DNA of 64,000 bases from Pseudanabaena sp. PCC 7367 (GTDB taxonomy: Bacteria; Cyanobacteriota; Cyanobacteriia; Pseudanabaenales; Pseudanabaenaceae), in NCBI RefSeq assembly GCF_000317065.1, contig NC_019701.1, positions 2,800,001 to 2,864,000 on the forward strand. The letters are read 5' to 3'. The notes beneath the pieces are model-generated. The model had not been told where the DNA came from. It worked only from the letters and a program-made list of their open reading frames with translations, and made no database searches. How positions within the stretch are numbered: position 1 is the first letter of the stretch; each line of letters opens with the position of its first letter. This document shows positions 1,289 through 45,876 of the stretch, in pieces. A program made the translations under genes and the position numbers.

Positions 1289-1887
1289 GAATGGATAATC
1301 CGCCTCTGGGGTAATTATGGTTCAGCCAAATATAATACTAGCTCTATGGCTACAGTCCAAATTATTTGTCTGCTTGAGGTATGCGGTATGGGGCGATTGC
1401 GATCGTCTTGCCTTTTTGAGTTTTTTTGAGCCTAGAGCCAACTGTCCACCATTCGCCCTAGATTGATCGCTCCAGTTAATTACAATCAATGCTGTTTAAG
1501 CCAAAGCATCCCCGATGCACATTAGACATATCAGACATATCAGGCACATACGCATGATTAAGCTCTAATTAGGCTCTGGGGTTTCTTAGCCATGATTAGA
1601 AGTAGTTAAGCAGACTTGGGTAAACAGGTTTATATAAGATCATCTTTACGGCCAGTCAAAGTAAAACCCTACCCAATAATGACAGGGTAAGGTTTTTCAA
1701 GATTCTGTCAAGGGATTTTAGCTTTGCTTAATAGATCTAGCTAAAAAACTAGCCGCAATTTAAGCTGACGATCGCTCCTCTGCAATTGTTGATCGACATA
1801 TCGATTTTGCTCAATATCTCGCTGAGCAGTAGGTACAGGCGATCGCCAAACTCGCATATAATCCCCATCGAGTTATTGCTTAATTTA
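1289..1887. other. intergenic between thrB and gloA
   Basis: Apart from the hairpin at 1663-1697 I see no gene. A minus-strand open frame at about 1749-1934 overlaps the end of gloA and has no recognisable protein features. Confidence 0.4.
1663..1697. terminator. strong hairpin terminator, probably for gloA
   Basis: A 12-bp stem (1663-1674 paired with 1685-1696, 11 of 12 matching) with a 10-nt loop. T-runs occur at both outer edges, so it could work in either direction. It lies about 190 nt downstream of gloA on the minus strand and upstream of thrB, so it probably insulates the two. Confidence 0.65.
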
Positions 1888-2325
1888 TTACGTTGAGCTA
1901 ATTGCCGGCTCCCGATCGCTGGTCGCAGATTCACTATTTTGGGGCTTGGTTTGAATTAGCTCGATCTTATAGCCGTCTGGGTCTTCCACAAACGCGATCT
2001 CAGTGGTGCCATGCTTCATCGGCCCTGGCTCACGGGTTACTTTGCCACCCCTTGCCTTAATCTCCGCACAAGCTTTGTAAATATCCTCAATCCCCAGGGC
2101 AATATGCCCATAACCATTACCCAGATCATATTTGTCTGTGTCCCAGTTATAGGTTAGCTCGATTGCCGGGTGGGTGGCCTCATCGCCAAACCCTACAAAA
2201 GCTAGCGTAAACTTACCGCCAGGGTAGTCCTTGCGCCGTAATAATTGCATCCCCAAAACTTCGCAATAAAAGCTGATTGAGCGATCGAGATCGCCAACTC
2301 GAATCATGGTATGTAGAATTCTCAT
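1888..2325 (-). CDS. gloA: lactoylglutathione lyase (glyoxalase I)
   Basis: Glyoxalase I isomerises the hemithioacetal of methylglyoxal and glutathione to S-lactoylglutathione, a cytosolic detoxification step. The four metal ligands of the bacterial enzyme are all present at the expected spacing: H5, E56, H74 and E122. The core ends near residue 125, followed by a polar tail of about 20 residues that looks dispensable. The ATG at 2325 begins [13 protein letters not shown], the standard start of the family. The gene stands alone, with the candidate terminator at 1663-1697 downstream. Confidence 0.95.
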
Positions 2326-2621
2326 TTGTAGTATTTCTCAGGTAGTTAAGTTATCCATACTTTGCCCATATTACTAAATAGGCATTTAATCGATCATAGC
2401 GCCGATTCAAAATCCCTTCTTTGCAACTAGAACACAACCGGACACAACCGGACACAACCATGCAAATTATGATCGTTGCCACGCCGATCGAATAAGCACC
2501 AGCGATCGGGCAAACTGATCCCGCACATACCCCGAACATACCTTTGATATTTTTGATATCTAAAATGCTAATATTTCTAACTTTGCATCATGCAATGCCA
2601 ACTTTTTGACCTAACCACTAA

Positions 2622-3866
2622 TTAACCACTAATGATCCGTTTGGTTGTAGTCAAGCTTTCCAGGTTAATCGCGCCGGCATAGCGAGAAGCACCACGACTC
2701 TTCAGGCTCGACATCCCCAACAAAATCTGGGCACTGCCGCCCTGGGGCAAGTCGCGGCGGTGGCTAAACTGATTGCTGGCATTGATATAAATATTGCTGC
2801 TATTAATGCGATCGCTGAATTCATGGGTCTCTGAAAGCGAATCGGTTAAAAGTACATCGGCATGGCCACTGCTATATTGATTGATCCAGGCGATCGCTGC
2901 TTCTAGATCATCCACCACCTTAATCGCCATAGTCTGATTTAAATAGGCTTTGCCCCACTCACTCTCTAGGGTCACTTCCTCTAATAATTGATCGCCATGA
3001 TTGCGGCTATAGGCCACGGTTACATCACAACCCTTGAGGCGCATATTACGTTTCTGGAGCGTAGCCAGCCATTTAATTAAGCCGCGATCGAGCCAACTAC
3101 GATGCACTACCACTTTTTCGATCGCATTAACCGCCTCTGGATCACCTTCAAAACTAGCGATCACAATCCGATGTACCGCTTTCAGGCTACCGGAATCCGA
3201 CAAATATAAATAGCAATTACCCATCACAGTTGGCAACACTGACACAGTTGCCTGTTTACATACCTGTTGTACAAAAATCGGCCTGCCATAGGGAATGACC
3301 AATCGTAAATATCGCTCTTGGGTCAACAAATCCTTCAGCGGACTACCCTCTGGTGCCACCAATGCAGTTGCCTCGGGTAAATCACAATCGGCCAGCACCA
3401 TCTTAGCAATTTGGGCGATCGCCTGCTGAGAATGGCTAATTTCATTGCCCCCTTTCAGGATCAAACTATTGCCAACCTTAATGCACATACCGATCGCAAT
3501 TAAAGCTAGTTGAGGGAAAGCTTCATACACTAGGGCGATCGTGCCCAGGGGCACCCGCTTATAACCATATTGCACCAATTGATTCAAAAGTGGACTCGGA
3601 GCCTGAGCCAGATGCTCTAAACATTCGGCAATCCCCAACAATCGCTCTGGGGTCAGCTTTAGCCATTCCAAGAGTGTTTCCGAGATCGCCATTTCCCGAC
3701 TTGCTTCTAGATCAAGGGTATTTGCCTCCAAAATTAAGTTTCGCTCTTGTTTGACTGCGATCGCTAACTTACGAATTGCCTGGTTTTTTTCCTCAATATC
3801 AAGCCTTGCTAGCTCTAGCGAAGCAACATGAGCGTGATAGACGAAACCAATTAGATCGTCTGGCAT
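2622..3866 (-). CDS. ProA-like protein (gamma-glutamyl phosphate reductase paralogue) lacking the catalytic Cys
   Basis: The 414 residues align along their full length with ProA, the NADPH-dependent reductase that makes glutamate-5-semialdehyde for proline synthesis. Recognisable segments include KRVPLGTIALVYEAFP (103-118), GNSLILKGGNE (132-142), GNCYLYLSDS (216-225), SGHADVLLTDS and YINASNQF. However, the active-site segment that usually reads RPGVCNALE here reads DPEAVNAIE, so the catalytic cysteine position is V246. The normal IPRGG dinucleotide/phosphate segment is IPYGR (191-195). The frame is otherwise intact, so this looks like a maintained but catalytically altered paralogue, not a decaying gene. 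A conventional proA would have to lie elsewhere. Start: the ATG at 3866 gives the only reasonable family-length N-terminus. Confidence 0.85.
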   Translation of the reverse strand: MPDDLIGFVYHAHVASLELARLDIEEKNQAIRKLAIAVKQERNLILEANTLDLEASREMAISETLLEWLKLTPERLLGIAECLEHLAQAPSPLLNQLVQYGYKRVPLGTIALVYEAFPQLALIAIGMCIKVGNSLILKGGNEISHSQQAIAQIAKMVLADCDLPEATALVAPEGSPLKDLLTQERYLRLVIPYGRPIFVQQVCKQATVSVLPTVMGNCYLYLSDSGSLKAVHRIVIASFEGDPEAVNAIEKVVVHRSWLDRGLIKWLATLQKRNMRLKGCDVTVAYSRNHGDQLLEEVTLESEWGKAYLNQTMAIKVVDDLEAAIAWINQYSSGHADVLLTDSLSETHEFSDRINSSNIYINASNQFSHRRDLPQGGSAQILLGMSSLKSRGASRYAGAINLESLTTTKRIISG

Positions 3867-41089: not shown

Positions 41090-42346
41090 CTAGGAGGCGA
41101 TCGGCAGCGTAAACCAGAACCTAGAACCCACATCAGGCTGACTAACCACGCCAATTTCGCCGCCATGAGCCAGAATAATTTGTCGGCAGATATATAAACC
41201 TAGTCCCAACCCAAAGGCTCGCTTTCCATCACCACGGGCATATAGATCAAATAGTGATTCACATTGATGGGAAGACATGCCCACGCCATCATCTTCAATG
41301 CTACAAACCACAAGCGGTGTATTAGCTAGGTTCATGGCTGAAGGTTGCGGTAGGGTTAAGGAATGCTCCTGTGGCCAATCGCTGCCTGGCTCAAACACCT
41401 GAGCCTTAATCACTAGTTTTAGACCCGGTGGATTGTGCTTGAGGGCATTGCTGATTAAATTTTGAAATACCCGCCCCAACTGGGTCACATCCCCATATAC
41501 CGGTTGTAAATTGACATCAATTTGATTCGCTAAACTAGCTTTCTCAGCTACAGCGATCGACTCTAGGTCATTGATAATCCCTTCTACCAAATTGGCCAGA
41601 TGCACTGATTCACAATAGAGCTTGAGCCCTTTTATATCATTGGCATAGGATTCTAGGAGGGAGTTGATCAAGTTGAGCTGGCGATCGCTACTGCTGCACA
41701 TTCTTTCCAGTACCCGACGCGGTATGGCAATCGTCTTATCCTGGTCAGGATTTTTATCGAGCAAATTTTGCAACAGCATCAGCATCCCCGTCACTGGATT
41801 ACGCAGATCGTGGGAAACCGCATGTAAAAAGATGCGCAATGATTCTTCGGCCTGTTGGCGATCGCTAATTTCTTGTTGCAATGCGGCGTTTTGGTCTTGA
41901 AGCCGATGTTGCAAGGCTTTGATGGTTAAGTGGGTGTGGAGCCTGGCTAAGACCTCCTCATGTTCGATCGGCTTGGTAATGTAATCGACCGCACCAACAT
42001 CAAACCCATGTACCTTATCGACCGTATCCGAGAGCGCAGTCATAAAAATCACCGGAATTTCGGCGGTCACGGAATTAGCCTTAAGCCGCTGACAGGTTTC
42101 AAACCCATCGATCCCCGGCATCATCACATCCAGTAAAATCAAATCCGGCGTAACGTATTCTAGCTGAGCGATCGCTCCTTCGCCATCGGTCGCCACCAAC
42201 ATCTTGAACCCAGCATCATTGAGCAGATCAAATAGTACACTCAAGTTAGTTGGGTTATCATCTACCACCAATACCACTGGTTGCTTTGCAGTGGTTGCAG
42301 CGGCAGCTATGTCATTTTCAGCATATGGTTCCGGCTGTGCTGCCAT
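41090..42346 (-). CDS. REC-histidine kinase hybrid
   Basis: Counting from the ATG at 42346 (MAAQPEPYAEND), 418 residues. An N-terminal receiver domain (VVLVVDDNPTNLSVL; the phospho-acceptor Asp is in LILLDVMMPGIDGFE; Lys in YITKPI) is followed by a coiled coil (QHRLQDQNAALQQEISDRQQAEE), HisKA box FLHAVSHDLRNPVTG with the phospho-His, and HATPase motifs NLISNALKH, DDGVGM and FGLGLGLYICRQI. The frame extends 25 codons further to 42421, but without any conserved residues. Cytosolic: there is no TM. The input must come through the REC domain or its coiled coil; the partner kinase is not visible. Confidence 0.88.
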   Translation of the reverse strand: MAAQPEPYAENDIAAAATTAKQPVVLVVDDNPTNLSVLFDLLNDAGFKMLVATDGEGAIAQLEYVTPDLILLDVMMPGIDGFETCQRLKANSVTAEIPVIFMTALSDTVDKVHGFDVGAVDYITKPIEHEEVLARLHTHLTIKALQHRLQDQNAALQQEISDRQQAEESLRIFLHAVSHDLRNPVTGMLMLLQNLLDKNPDQDKTIAIPRRVLERMCSSSDRQLNLINSLLESYANDIKGLKLYCESVHLANLVEGIINDLESIAVAEKASLANQIDVNLQPVYGDVTQLGRVFQNLISNALKHNPPGLKLVIKAQVFEPGSDWPQEHSLTLPQPSAMNLANTPLVVCSIEDDGVGMSSHQCESLFDLYARGDGKRAFGLGLGLYICRQIILAHGGEIGVVSQPDVGSRFWFTLPIAS

Positions 42347-43897: not shown

Positions 43898-44078
43898 AGG
43901 AGAATTAATTGATAGGACTAACACTTCTACTTTAATGAATCCTACAAACAAGTAGGTTAATTCACACTGAGATTATCCTAAAAGCTAGTTATTCTGTAGT
44001 AGCAAAGAACTCCTACGACTTAGAAATAATGCCTTAAACTAGGGAAGTAAGCATGAAAATCATAAGGCTTTAAGTGTA

Positions 44079-45143
44079 ATGGCTCAGAAAATAGCCCTCT
44101 TCAACCACAAGGGTGGTGTTAGCAAAACTACTACAACGTTCAATCTGGGTTGGATGCTCGCTTCAAAAGGAAAAAGAGTAATTCTGGTAGATACTGATCC
44201 TCAGTGTAATTTGACTGGAATGGCTTTAGGAGAAGCAACTGAGGATGACGAAGAGCGAATAGAAAGCATTTATAATACACATTCAAATATCAAGACCGGA
44301 CTAGCACCAGCATTTGAGTCTCAACCTAGAGCGATCGAAGCAGTTGATTGTATTCAAGTAAATAATCAGGATGGATTATTTCTATTACCAGGTCATGTTG
44401 GTTTTGCAGAATATGAAGTTACTCTGGGTATCGCCCAAGAGTTAAGCGGCTCAGTCCAAACCCTGAAAAATGTACCTGGCTCAATTTCAGATTTGTTAGA
44501 AAAAACAGCTAGAAAGTTTGATGCTGATTACTTGCTGATTGATATGAGTCCTAGCCTGGGAGCAATCAACCAGAATTTGTTAATGACCAGTGACTTTTTT
44601 ATCGTACCAACCACGGCTGACTTTTTCTCTGTAATGGCGATCGATTCCCTAGCCAGTGTGTTACCAAAGTGGCACGCATGGGCAAAAGCAGCAAGTTCAT
44701 TGCCAATTTACAAGAATGCTAACTATCCGTTTCCAGAGGTTACACTTAAGTTCCTTGGTACAATCATTCAGAATTATCGTATTATTCGCGGCAAAGAAAC
44801 CGTTGCTTTTGAGAAATGGATTCAGAAGATTGAAGGAGATGTATCATCCAAATTAGTACCTGAATTTAGAAAGATGGATATGATGCTACCTGAAGCAGTA
44901 TATGGTGCACAGGAGATTGGGGAAACTTTTTGCCTGACGAAAATCTCTAACTTTAATAGCCTTATTGCACTTTCCCAAGAGCACCAGACTCCCATTTATG
45001 ACCTTACACCCAAGCAACTTAAGCAAGGAGGTAAAGTTCTAAGCACAAGTCAGAAAAAACAGGAAGAATTCCGGCAGGTGTTTAATGACTTAGCAGAAAA
45101 GATTATTGGCTTAACCTCGGCTGCATATGCAATCAGCGCTTGA
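44079..45143 (+). CDS. ParA/MinD-like ATPase of a HEPN-linked module
   Basis: 354 residues. Deviant Walker A is FNHKGGVSKTTTTFN (about 8-22), Walker B is DYLLIDMSPSLGA, and a VLVDTDPQCNLT-like strand (VILVDTDPQCNLTG) follows Walker A. ParA-type ATPases dimerise with ATP and bind DNA or membrane. There is no parB, and the C-terminal 150 residues (IIQNYRIIRGKETVAFEKWIQKI...) are unlike chromosomal ParA. It overlaps the following HEPN gene by 17 bp, so the two are translationally coupled. No full HIP1 octamer is present, pointing to acquisition by transfer. Confidence 0.85.
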   Translation: MAQKIALFNHKGGVSKTTTTFNLGWMLASKGKRVILVDTDPQCNLTGMALGEATEDDEERIESIYNTHSNIKTGLAPAFESQPRAIEAVDCIQVNNQDGLFLLPGHVGFAEYEVTLGIAQELSGSVQTLKNVPGSISDLLEKTARKFDADYLLIDMSPSLGAINQNLLMTSDFFIVPTTADFFSVMAIDSLASVLPKWHAWAKAASSLPIYKNANYPFPEVTLKFLGTIIQNYRIIRGKETVAFEKWIQKIEGDVSSKLVPEFRKMDMMLPEAVYGAQEIGETFCLTKISNFNSLIALSQEHQTPIYDLTPKQLKQGGKVLSTSQKKQEEFRQVFNDLAEKIIGLTSAAYAISA

Positions 45144-45876
45144 CCAATTCCGAATTAGCGTCGCCCGTGTTCGTGACCTGATATCTCTTCATAATTCTCT
45201 CAAAGCCCAAGCCACGCCTGTAATAGATCTATCGGATCTTTTGAGGGCATCTCTGGTTATGACTGTAAGTGCTTTGGATTACTACATTCATGAGGTTGTT
45301 GTCTTTGGGATGCTAGAAATTCATCGAGGAAACCGCCCCGAACCCCTTCCATCAAAAAATAATATTCAGTCTGCTTTTGCCCGCTTTCAAGTTTCATTGG
45401 GTGGGGCGCGCCAGGAAAGATTAATAGCAATAGATATTGCTAATTGGCTGGAACAAGAGATCCAAGTAAATCAAGGCGCTCCTTTTTTGCAGCAATCCCA
45501 TCTAGTTTCTTCCTTGCTCCCTGTTATATCAACCAGCGTAAAAAATAGGCTTGACAAGGCTTCATGGTTAGAAGACGAAATACGAGAACGACTTGGATAT
45601 AAAAGTTTTCAACATCCAGATAAGATTGCTGAGGCGATTAGATTGATCTCAGATAAGAAATTGTGGGATGAAGTAGCCGTAAATATGGATTTGGATGCGA
45701 AGGACATCAAACAAGAACTCATTGCCATAGTCGATCGCAGAAACAAAATCGCCCACGAAGCGGACATAGATCCTACGTTTGGTATTGGCGGTCGCTGGAA
45801 TATTGACGAAATCATGGTTAATGATGTGATTGACTTTATTGAGAAGGTGGTTGAAAGTATCCACCAAATTTTATGA
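45127..45876 (+). CDS. HEPN-family (RiboL-PSP-HEPN-like) putative RNase
   Basis: 249 residues, mostly helical. Two diagnostic segments are visible: the N-terminal helix LRASLVMTVSALDYYIHEVVVFG, typical of RiboL-PSP-HEPN proteins, and the catalytic Rx4H motif RNKIAH followed by E (about 228-234). HEPN proteins are metal-independent RNases used in toxin-antitoxin and anti-phage systems. It starts 17 bp before the end of the ParA-like gene, so production is coupled. The pairing suggests that the ATPase senses or restrains the RNase. This is inferred; the substrate is unknown. Confidence 0.8.
   Translation: MQSALDQFRISVARVRDLISLHNSLKAQATPVIDLSDLLRASLVMTVSALDYYIHEVVVFGMLEIHRGNRPEPLPSKNNIQSAFARFQVSLGGARQERLIAIDIANWLEQEIQVNQGAPFLQQSHLVSSLLPVISTSVKNRLDKASWLEDEIRERLGYKSFQHPDKIAEAIRLISDKKLWDEVAVNMDLDAKDIKQELIAIVDRRNKIAHEADIDPTFGIGGRWNIDEIMVNDVIDFIEKVVESIHQIL

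Follow-up and report, generated by a model that had tools for sequence, protein, structure and literature searches.

A mobile gene pair of a ParA/Soj-like ATPase and a HEPN protein in cyanobacteria, inoviruses and plasmids: a candidate toxin-antitoxin-type module

Introduction

Anantharaman et al. (2013) described a dyad of a ParA/Soj-like ATPase and a HEPN protein of the MAE_18760 family, and predicted that the two act as antitoxin and toxin, respectively (PMC3710099). The same survey places the RiboL-PSP HEPN family in an operon with ParB, not ParA, and states an antitoxin-first gene order for several type II modules. We found no experimental study of a ParA-HEPN pair in the open-access literature. 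The locus described here resembles the 2013 dyad in being a two-gene operon of a ParA/Soj ATPase and a HEPN protein that invites the same toxin/antitoxin prediction, and appears to differ from it in its HEPN protein, which belongs to PF18735 and matches PF18737 only below the cut-off. The kind of pair was predicted in 2013 and occurs here apparently with a different HEPN family; new here are the scale of its distribution, its one-sided decay, its members in inoviruses and on plasmids, the exchange of partners, and natural variants with a damaged P-loop.

Other described systems resemble the pair in part. PF18735 is listed in PD-T4-2, PD-T4-5, PD-T7-3 and ApeA (PMC10952713), and PD-T4-2 is reported to protect E. 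coli against T4 (PMC9519451). In PD-T4-2 and GmrSD_N systems, as in the present pair, a nucleotide-using partner comes first and a PF18735 HEPN protein second, in overlapping or closely spaced genes, but the partner is DUF262 there and ParA here, and the pair has no PD-T4-2 match. In HEPN-MNT type VII systems, for which an AMPylation mechanism is described (PMC7641770, PMC11586414), a HEPN RNase toxin adjoins a nucleotide-binding antitoxin, as is predicted here, and the fold may be similar (7ae9, 7bxo, 8xdj, at Z values that are only suggestive), whereas the antitoxin is a nucleotidyltransferase there and an AAA_31/ParA ATPase here. Soj/ParA-ParB partition systems share the fold and sequence of the ATPase; in the present locus, in contrast, the partner is a HEPN protein, no ParB_N protein was found in the genome, and the ATPase falls in a separate clade.

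The gene pair and its products

The pair lies in a window of 64,000 nucleotides (the whole stretch of DNA that was analysed) from Pseudanabaena sp. PCC 7367, whose positions are used below.

43952..44078, + strand: intergenic region 5' of the ATPase gene, presumed promoter site; TAAGG precedes the ATPase start
44079..45143, + strand: ParA/Soj-like ATPase gene, ATG start, 354 aa; predicted antitoxin/regulator
45127..45143, + strand: overlap of the ATPase and HEPN genes, 17 bp
45127..45876, + strand: HEPN gene (PF18735), ATG start, 249 aa; predicted RNase toxin
45736..45765, + strand: codons of RRNKIAHEAD, HEPN residues 204-213, containing the RX4H motif

The open reading frame coordinates agree with the original prediction, which had the ATPase gene (KGGVSKTTT) overlapping the HEPN gene by 17 bp. 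The pair is flanked on the left by genes for a fatty-acid hydroxylase, a tRNA-Arg and a sensor kinase, and on the right by a gene for a large hybrid kinase. Between positions 42000 and 47000 the tRNA was the sole Rfam match, and hence no AbiF-like guide RNA was found there. It had also been pointed out that no HIP1 octamer occurs in the pair, which is true, but weak evidence: 8% of window stretches of the pair's length lack HIP1 (Poisson chance 0.11), and we rejected its absence as a sign of foreignness. The genome (4.89 Mb in two contigs) has 5,960 HIP1 sites. GC3 points to a foreign origin more clearly, with values of 0.35 and 0.38 in the pair compared to 0.48-0.53 in four flanking genes.

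The HEPN protein matches PF18735 (HEPN_RiboL-PSP) at E 9.8e-15 with 55.4 bits (cut-off 28.4), and reaches 17.4 against a cut-off of 26.8 bits for PF18737 (MAE_28990/MAE_18760-like). The RNKIAH motif that was first noticed is part of an almost invariant RRNKIAHEAD block containing R205-x4-H210, and R204, R205 and H210 are invariant in 64/64 proteins of an alignment that takes in the Pf1 and Burkholderia proteins described below. The LRASLVMTVSALDYY helix proved equally real, with nine residues (D37, L39, R40, V44, V47, S48, A49, D51 and H55) invariant in the same 64 proteins. An AlphaFold model (pLDDT 83.5) gave no significant HEPN match in Foldseek; in VIA, seven of the first nine rows were HEPN structures (1jog, Z 9.2; 8xdj, 8.8; 8yuf, 8.5; 8xeh, 8.5; 7ae9, 8.3; 7bxo, 8.3; 4nqf, 8.0), with two other entries between them, and these values of 8.0-9.2 are only suggestive, as a Z below about 13 may mean merely a common arrangement in helical bundles. 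The window's HEPN protein matched no PADLOC model and no PDB sequence at E <= 1 and no NCBIfam family, and a scan of IMG/VR with it found no relative. The HEPN proteins of Microcoleus, Okeania and Tychonema (L057-L062) are about 201 aa long, as are those of phage WX-TY and Burkholderia, and the 249-aa form has an additional stretch near residues 97-145.

The ATPase matches AAA_31 at E 4.6e-31. Its P-loop reads K11-G-G-V-S-K16-T, and D38, D40 and D155, which we take to be Walker A' (D38/D40) and Walker B (D155), are invariant in 41 sequences. With its AlphaFold model (pLDDT 84.4), Soj/ParA structures topped the Foldseek list (6.7e-13). The protein combines the deviant Walker A motif, including the signature lysine, with the ParA/Soj fold, and its PADLOC matches are weak only (PDC-M28B, 1.9e-7 over 39 residues). 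The absence of a nearby parB, noted at the outset, extends to the whole genome: a profile search confined to the ParB_N (PF02195) family of partition adaptors returned no match at E <= 0.001, compared to at least one in 10 of 14 control genomes. A parS/ParB system elsewhere in the genome that fits the ATPase had been named as a condition against the original prediction, and this ParB_N result is in the prediction's favour.

Conservation of the pair in cyanobacteria

A search of the genomes of 84,980 species with the HEPN protein recovered 77 loci, and every record concerned reads as cyanobacterial. An ATPase relative stands upstream of the HEPN gene in 75 of them; the two exceptions are a locus that begins at a contig edge (L045) and one that holds a HEPN fragment only (L068). 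A further sample comprised 291 cyanobacterial genomes, some of them shared with the first set; here the ATPase was found at E <= 1e-40 in 24 genomes, spanning 16 of 113 genera, and the identical 24 have a strong HEPN match; four more genomes gave marginal HEPN matches only (2.7e-4 to 8.4e-4). Identity to the window's proteins is mostly about 65-78% within cyanobacteria for both proteins, and the pairwise distances of the two correlate (Mantel r 0.52, with 0 of 2000 permutations as high).

Conservation of the overlapping pair had been proposed as a check. Among 55 intact pairs (54 of the loci and the window), the overlap is exactly 17 bp in 51, the rest having 26, -12, -13 and -34; a conserved overlap of this kind is not chance. 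RR[NH]xIAH is intact in the HEPN protein of all 55, and the P-loop motif is kept in 52. A Shine-Dalgarno substring of at least five bases precedes the ATPase gene in 10 of the 55 pairs and the HEPN gene in none. Because the HEPN start lies inside the ATPase gene and has no strong Shine-Dalgarno sequence, translation of HEPN is probably coupled to that of the ATPase, though cyanobacteria often dispense with Shine-Dalgarno sequences. The two genes are adjacent, apparently co-translated and co-inherited, as in type II-like toxin-antitoxin systems. The regions upstream of the 55 pairs have no strong common motif, the top 8-mer occurring in 14.

No third conserved gene accompanies the pair among the two nearest genes on each side at 47 loci, which match 86 Pfam families downstream (92 of 93 open reading frames, one of 1,916 aa having been omitted) and 120 upstream (93 open reading frames). 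The commonest neighbour family is Uma2 (12/92 downstream, 6/93 upstream), which is abundant in cyanobacteria; Peptidase U32, in 7/92 downstream frames, marks a shared chromosomal site. The same neighbours form no consistent defence island, with PADLOC matches scattered among them.

Other partners of PF18735 proteins

An occurrence of HEPN homologues mainly without the ATPase had been named as a condition against the original prediction. At the level of orthologues the outcome favours the prediction, given the 75 of 77 loci above; in the Pfam family as a whole, the HEPN protein usually has a different partner. PF18735 matches were present in 52 of 194 cyanobacterial genomes, and all 30 of the non-ParA loci fetched have a GmrSD_N/DUF262-like protein; ten were confirmed by Pfam (10/10), and a profile trained on the same ten was applied to the rest. 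With the ATPase, tblastn reached no E-value below 0.05 at any of these 30 loci. PF18737 loci, many of them in the same places as the PF18735 set, also have a GmrSD_N/DUF262-like protein in 30/30, and the ATPase in 0/30 by HMM. Conversely, no GmrSD_N-like frame was found in the 77 ParA-type loci. Partners of two kinds or more are therefore known for this HEPN family, within which the ParA type forms a branch of its own. The DUF262-partnered loci that were scanned match PADLOC PD-T4-2_A and NsnA. One such pair is in the window's own genome, where another PF18735 HEPN gene follows a GmrSD_N/DUF262 gene (L140, G000:C2:530877-534347, positions 1480-3133) and matches NsnA and PD-T4-2_A are seen.

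Insertion sites and mobility

The pair is patchy and mobile, as seen from its presence in 24 of 291 genomes, its occurrence in phages and on plasmids, its low GC3 and the different two-gene cassette at its site in a sister genome. It is flanked by differing genes in differing genomes. In four genomes of one genus (G121, G097, G058 and G044) it lies upstream of a U32 peptidase gene, and it is also 5' of a U32 peptidase gene in a genome of another genus (G068). At the equivalent site of G066, which is of the same genus as G121, the pair's place is taken by two genes that overlap and encode 184 and 183 aa, between flanks that are 86% (left) and 96% (right) identical to those of G121. The first of these genes has a weak match to an Mrr-type endonuclease (2.8e-4, just above the cut-off), and the second a sub-threshold match to DUF3226. 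In G121, the bases that precede the ATPase start by some 70 to 90 nt resemble the first codons of the Mrr-like endonuclease gene. These observations, from a single pair of genomes, suggest that one cassette replaced the other at the U32 site. For the window's pair, the gene to its left offers no anchor by which to locate an empty site, since among 20 relatives, its own genome aside, it has two matches of 37-40% identity and no close homologue. The overlapping cassette with the weak Mrr-like endonuclease match and a DUF3226-like protein that contains EGKTD, in place of the pair upstream of a U32 peptidase gene, lies at L162 (421-1520, - strand).

Relatives in phages and plasmids

The Pf1 prophage record (AY324828; L079, 2977-4528) has an ATPase and a HEPN gene with an 8-bp overlap. 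The ATPase is annotated as the Soj-like Orf317; the HEPN protein (175 aa) is unannotated and was identified here, and the word HEPN is absent from the published Pf phage text that was searched. Phage WX-TY (L078, 2676-4308) has an ATPase-HEPN pair with the same 8-bp overlap, and further pairs are found on plasmids of Burkholderia glumae and B. arboris. The pair is among the accessory genes of Pf1-type inoviruses. One cyanobacterium (G256) carries, beside the common cyanobacterial type, an additional pair of the Pf1/Burkholderia type whose ATPase has a late stop (L106, 1501-3115).

A scan of IMG/VR with the ATPase alignment found 96 contigs with a relative, of which 80 were kept. HEPN lies downstream of the ATPase in 20 of these, and RRNx[IVL]xH is present in 19 of the 20 HEPN proteins, the twentieth having RRHKIVH. 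We rejected the idea that every relative of the ATPase has a HEPN partner: 60 of the 80 contigs have no HEPN match, and most of these have no close downstream open reading frame of at least 60 aa. In two contigs, L223 and L224, the ATPase precedes a different protein, which ends in RNDAIH (RX4H) in L224; the one in L223 is short, with a start that is similar by eye only.

In a tree of 45 ATPases, which used 33 of the 80 IMG/VR contigs, the 20 HEPN-linked sequences form one clade (support 100/99, compared to 85/73 in an earlier, smaller tree), L223 and L224 are sister to it (96/99), and the solo ATPases lie outside. The ATPases of pairs also form a clade of their own, apart from four other ParA-type ATPases of the window's genome. 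One more sampled region held an ordinary ParA, and hence was used as an outgroup. Six enterobacterial, Helicobacter and Pantoea records have the ATPase with no adjacent HEPN gene, four as judged by their open reading frames and two by annotation only. Solo ATPases are common in temperate phages, where they may be superinfection exclusion or antidote genes; in phage ST160 (L172, 2501-3574), L176 (2501-3577) and L173 (2501-3568), the solo ATPase belongs to the sister family and lies near repressor or integrase genes, with no HEPN gene downstream.

Decay of the pair

Both genes are intact in 54 of the 77 loci. In 13, HEPN is broken and the ATPase intact; the reverse was seen once, in a MAG of 3x coverage (L010), and both genes are broken in six. 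The remaining three are a locus whose ATPase is cut by a contig edge (L050), the HEPN fragment (L068) and the locus at a contig edge (L045). With gene length as the expectation, the ratio of 13:1 has p = 8.8e-5; lesions are counted per locus, not per independent event, three being from Rhizonema and several from draft MAGs, and complete losses of HEPN were missed by a search that used HEPN as the query. Adding L089 and L093 from other genomes gives 15:1 (p = 1.7e-5), leaving out two C-terminal lesions gives 11:1, and the ratio is 9:1 (p = 0.0022) once two more that lie close to contig ends are set aside. If three pairs with a damaged P-loop are counted as ATPase losses, the ratio is 13:4 (p = 0.0035). 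Where HEPN alone is broken, the remaining ATPase looks maintained: in 13 of 13 cases its P-loop is intact and its frame free of stops, with dN/dS of 0.04-0.37 relative to the closest among 16 intact loci. This pattern, in which the toxin is lost without the antitoxin and seldom the reverse, is the one expected of a toxin with its antidote, and the one-sided decay is the strongest evidence for a toxin-antitoxin-type module. Loss of an effector that leaves its sensor behind could be another source of some of the asymmetry.

The three pairs with a damaged P-loop (of 55 intact pairs) have an intact HEPN gene. In L014 the P-loop reads KGGVSTTTT; in two Crocosphaera MAGs, L017 and L029, it reads YEFGLSQT and YEFNLSQT, in an ATPase that has a full frame and a dN/dS of 0.35 between the two, compared to 0.14 for HEPN. 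Either neutralisation works without ATP in these pairs, or they may be decaying systems. Given these three of the 55, neutralisation may not need ATP, and an ATP-driven switch is not clearly needed. Of the two routes proposed in 2013, phosphorylation is the one that these pairs speak against as the sole means of restraint.

Interpretation

We propose that the pair is a mobile toxin-antitoxin-type module in which HEPN is a predicted RNase toxin that the cotranslated ATPase would restrain, and give this a probability of roughly 0.6; RNase activity, toxicity, binding and trigger are all deduced. The original prediction that the ATPase and HEPN form one functional unit, and that the ATPase holds or triggers the RNase, is borne out in its first part, and for the second restraint is the most likely form, because of the perfect co-occurrence, the conserved 17-bp overlap and the asymmetric decay. 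To judge from the RX4H motif and the fold, the HEPN RNase alone would cut cellular RNA and stop growth. The ATPase, encoded upstream and co-translated, would keep the RNase inactive, probably via direct binding. As the HEPN start lies inside the ATPase gene and has no strong Shine-Dalgarno sequence of its own, HEPN would probably be made only after the ATPase and in proportion to it. Loss, titration or disturbance of the ATPase, as in phage infection, would then free HEPN, and the module may serve in phage defence. A response to DNA or plasmid invasion, as first put forward, would be a further conceivable trigger. The predicted antitoxin comes first, as in several type II modules.

A possible account, though on the unlikely side, is that the pair is an anti-phage module of sensor and effector, in which the ATPase switches HEPN on during infection and HEPN alone is harmless; the ATPase may then have a role like that of the DUF262 NTPase in PD-T4-2-like systems. 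It draws on the GmrSD_N/DUF262 partners of all 30 other fetched cyanobacterial PF18735 loci, the scanned ones matching PD-T4-2_A and NsnA, on the reported protection of E. coli from T4 by PD-T4-2 (PMC9519451), on the listing of PF18735 in PD-T4-2, PD-T4-5, PD-T7-3 and ApeA (PMC10952713), and on the weak Mrr-like endonuclease match in the two-gene cassette at the sister genome's site. It predicts, however, that loss of the ATPase is as tolerable as loss of HEPN, which is at odds with the ratio of 13:1, and neither the neighbours, with no consistent defence island, nor the window's HEPN protein, with no PADLOC match at E <= 1, speak for it.

We consider it doubtful, if conceivable, that the ATPase family is an interchangeable restraint platform, placed before different toxic effectors on mobile elements, with a grip that would be independent of ATP. 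This idea is supported by the unrelated partners in L223 and L224, by the three P-loop-damaged pairs and by a RelA/SpoT pairing in L285, and under it the solo relatives in temperate phages could be phage-borne antidotes. In L285 (864-2644), a distant ParA-like ATPase overlaps a 268-aa RelA_SpoT protein (7e-13) by 4 bp; seen once, this is possibly, by its sequence, a toxin pair of an ATPase and an alarmone synthetase. Two further scans did not find RelA/SpoT or other-HEPN pairings again.

It is highly improbable that the pair serves in partition or positioning, with the ATPase moving a cargo and HEPN acting as a ParB-like adaptor that is no RNase: the ParA/Soj fold of the ATPase and the presence of the pair on plasmids and phages fit such a role, but an adaptor has no need of the RX4H motif, invariant in 55/55, and P-loop damage beside an intact HEPN gene in 3/55 is hard to reconcile with cargo transport. 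We give scarcely any credence to the idea that these are host genes with an ordinary task in processing RNA or adapting to stress and no role in conflict, since the strong conservation of both proteins in cyanobacteria (mostly about 65-78% identity) is set against their presence in only 24 of 291 genomes (16 of 113 genera), the phage and plasmid copies and the many decayed copies.

If the pair is a toxin-antitoxin-type module, a ParA-family ATPase as antitoxin would mean that a family known to move DNA and cargo can also control an RNase. Cheap tests of the 2013 prediction are now within reach, with many intact pairs, short Pf1-like ones, and natural variants with dead HEPN or damaged P-loops, and the DUF262-partnered sister HEPN family permits a direct comparison. 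For the unexplained accessory gene pair of inovirus Pf1, the module offers a reasoned guess. A further form of decay was seen in an Okeania MAG (L069, 4380-6005), in which the ATPase is broken and its C-terminal residues 289-347 are repeated several times in tandem.
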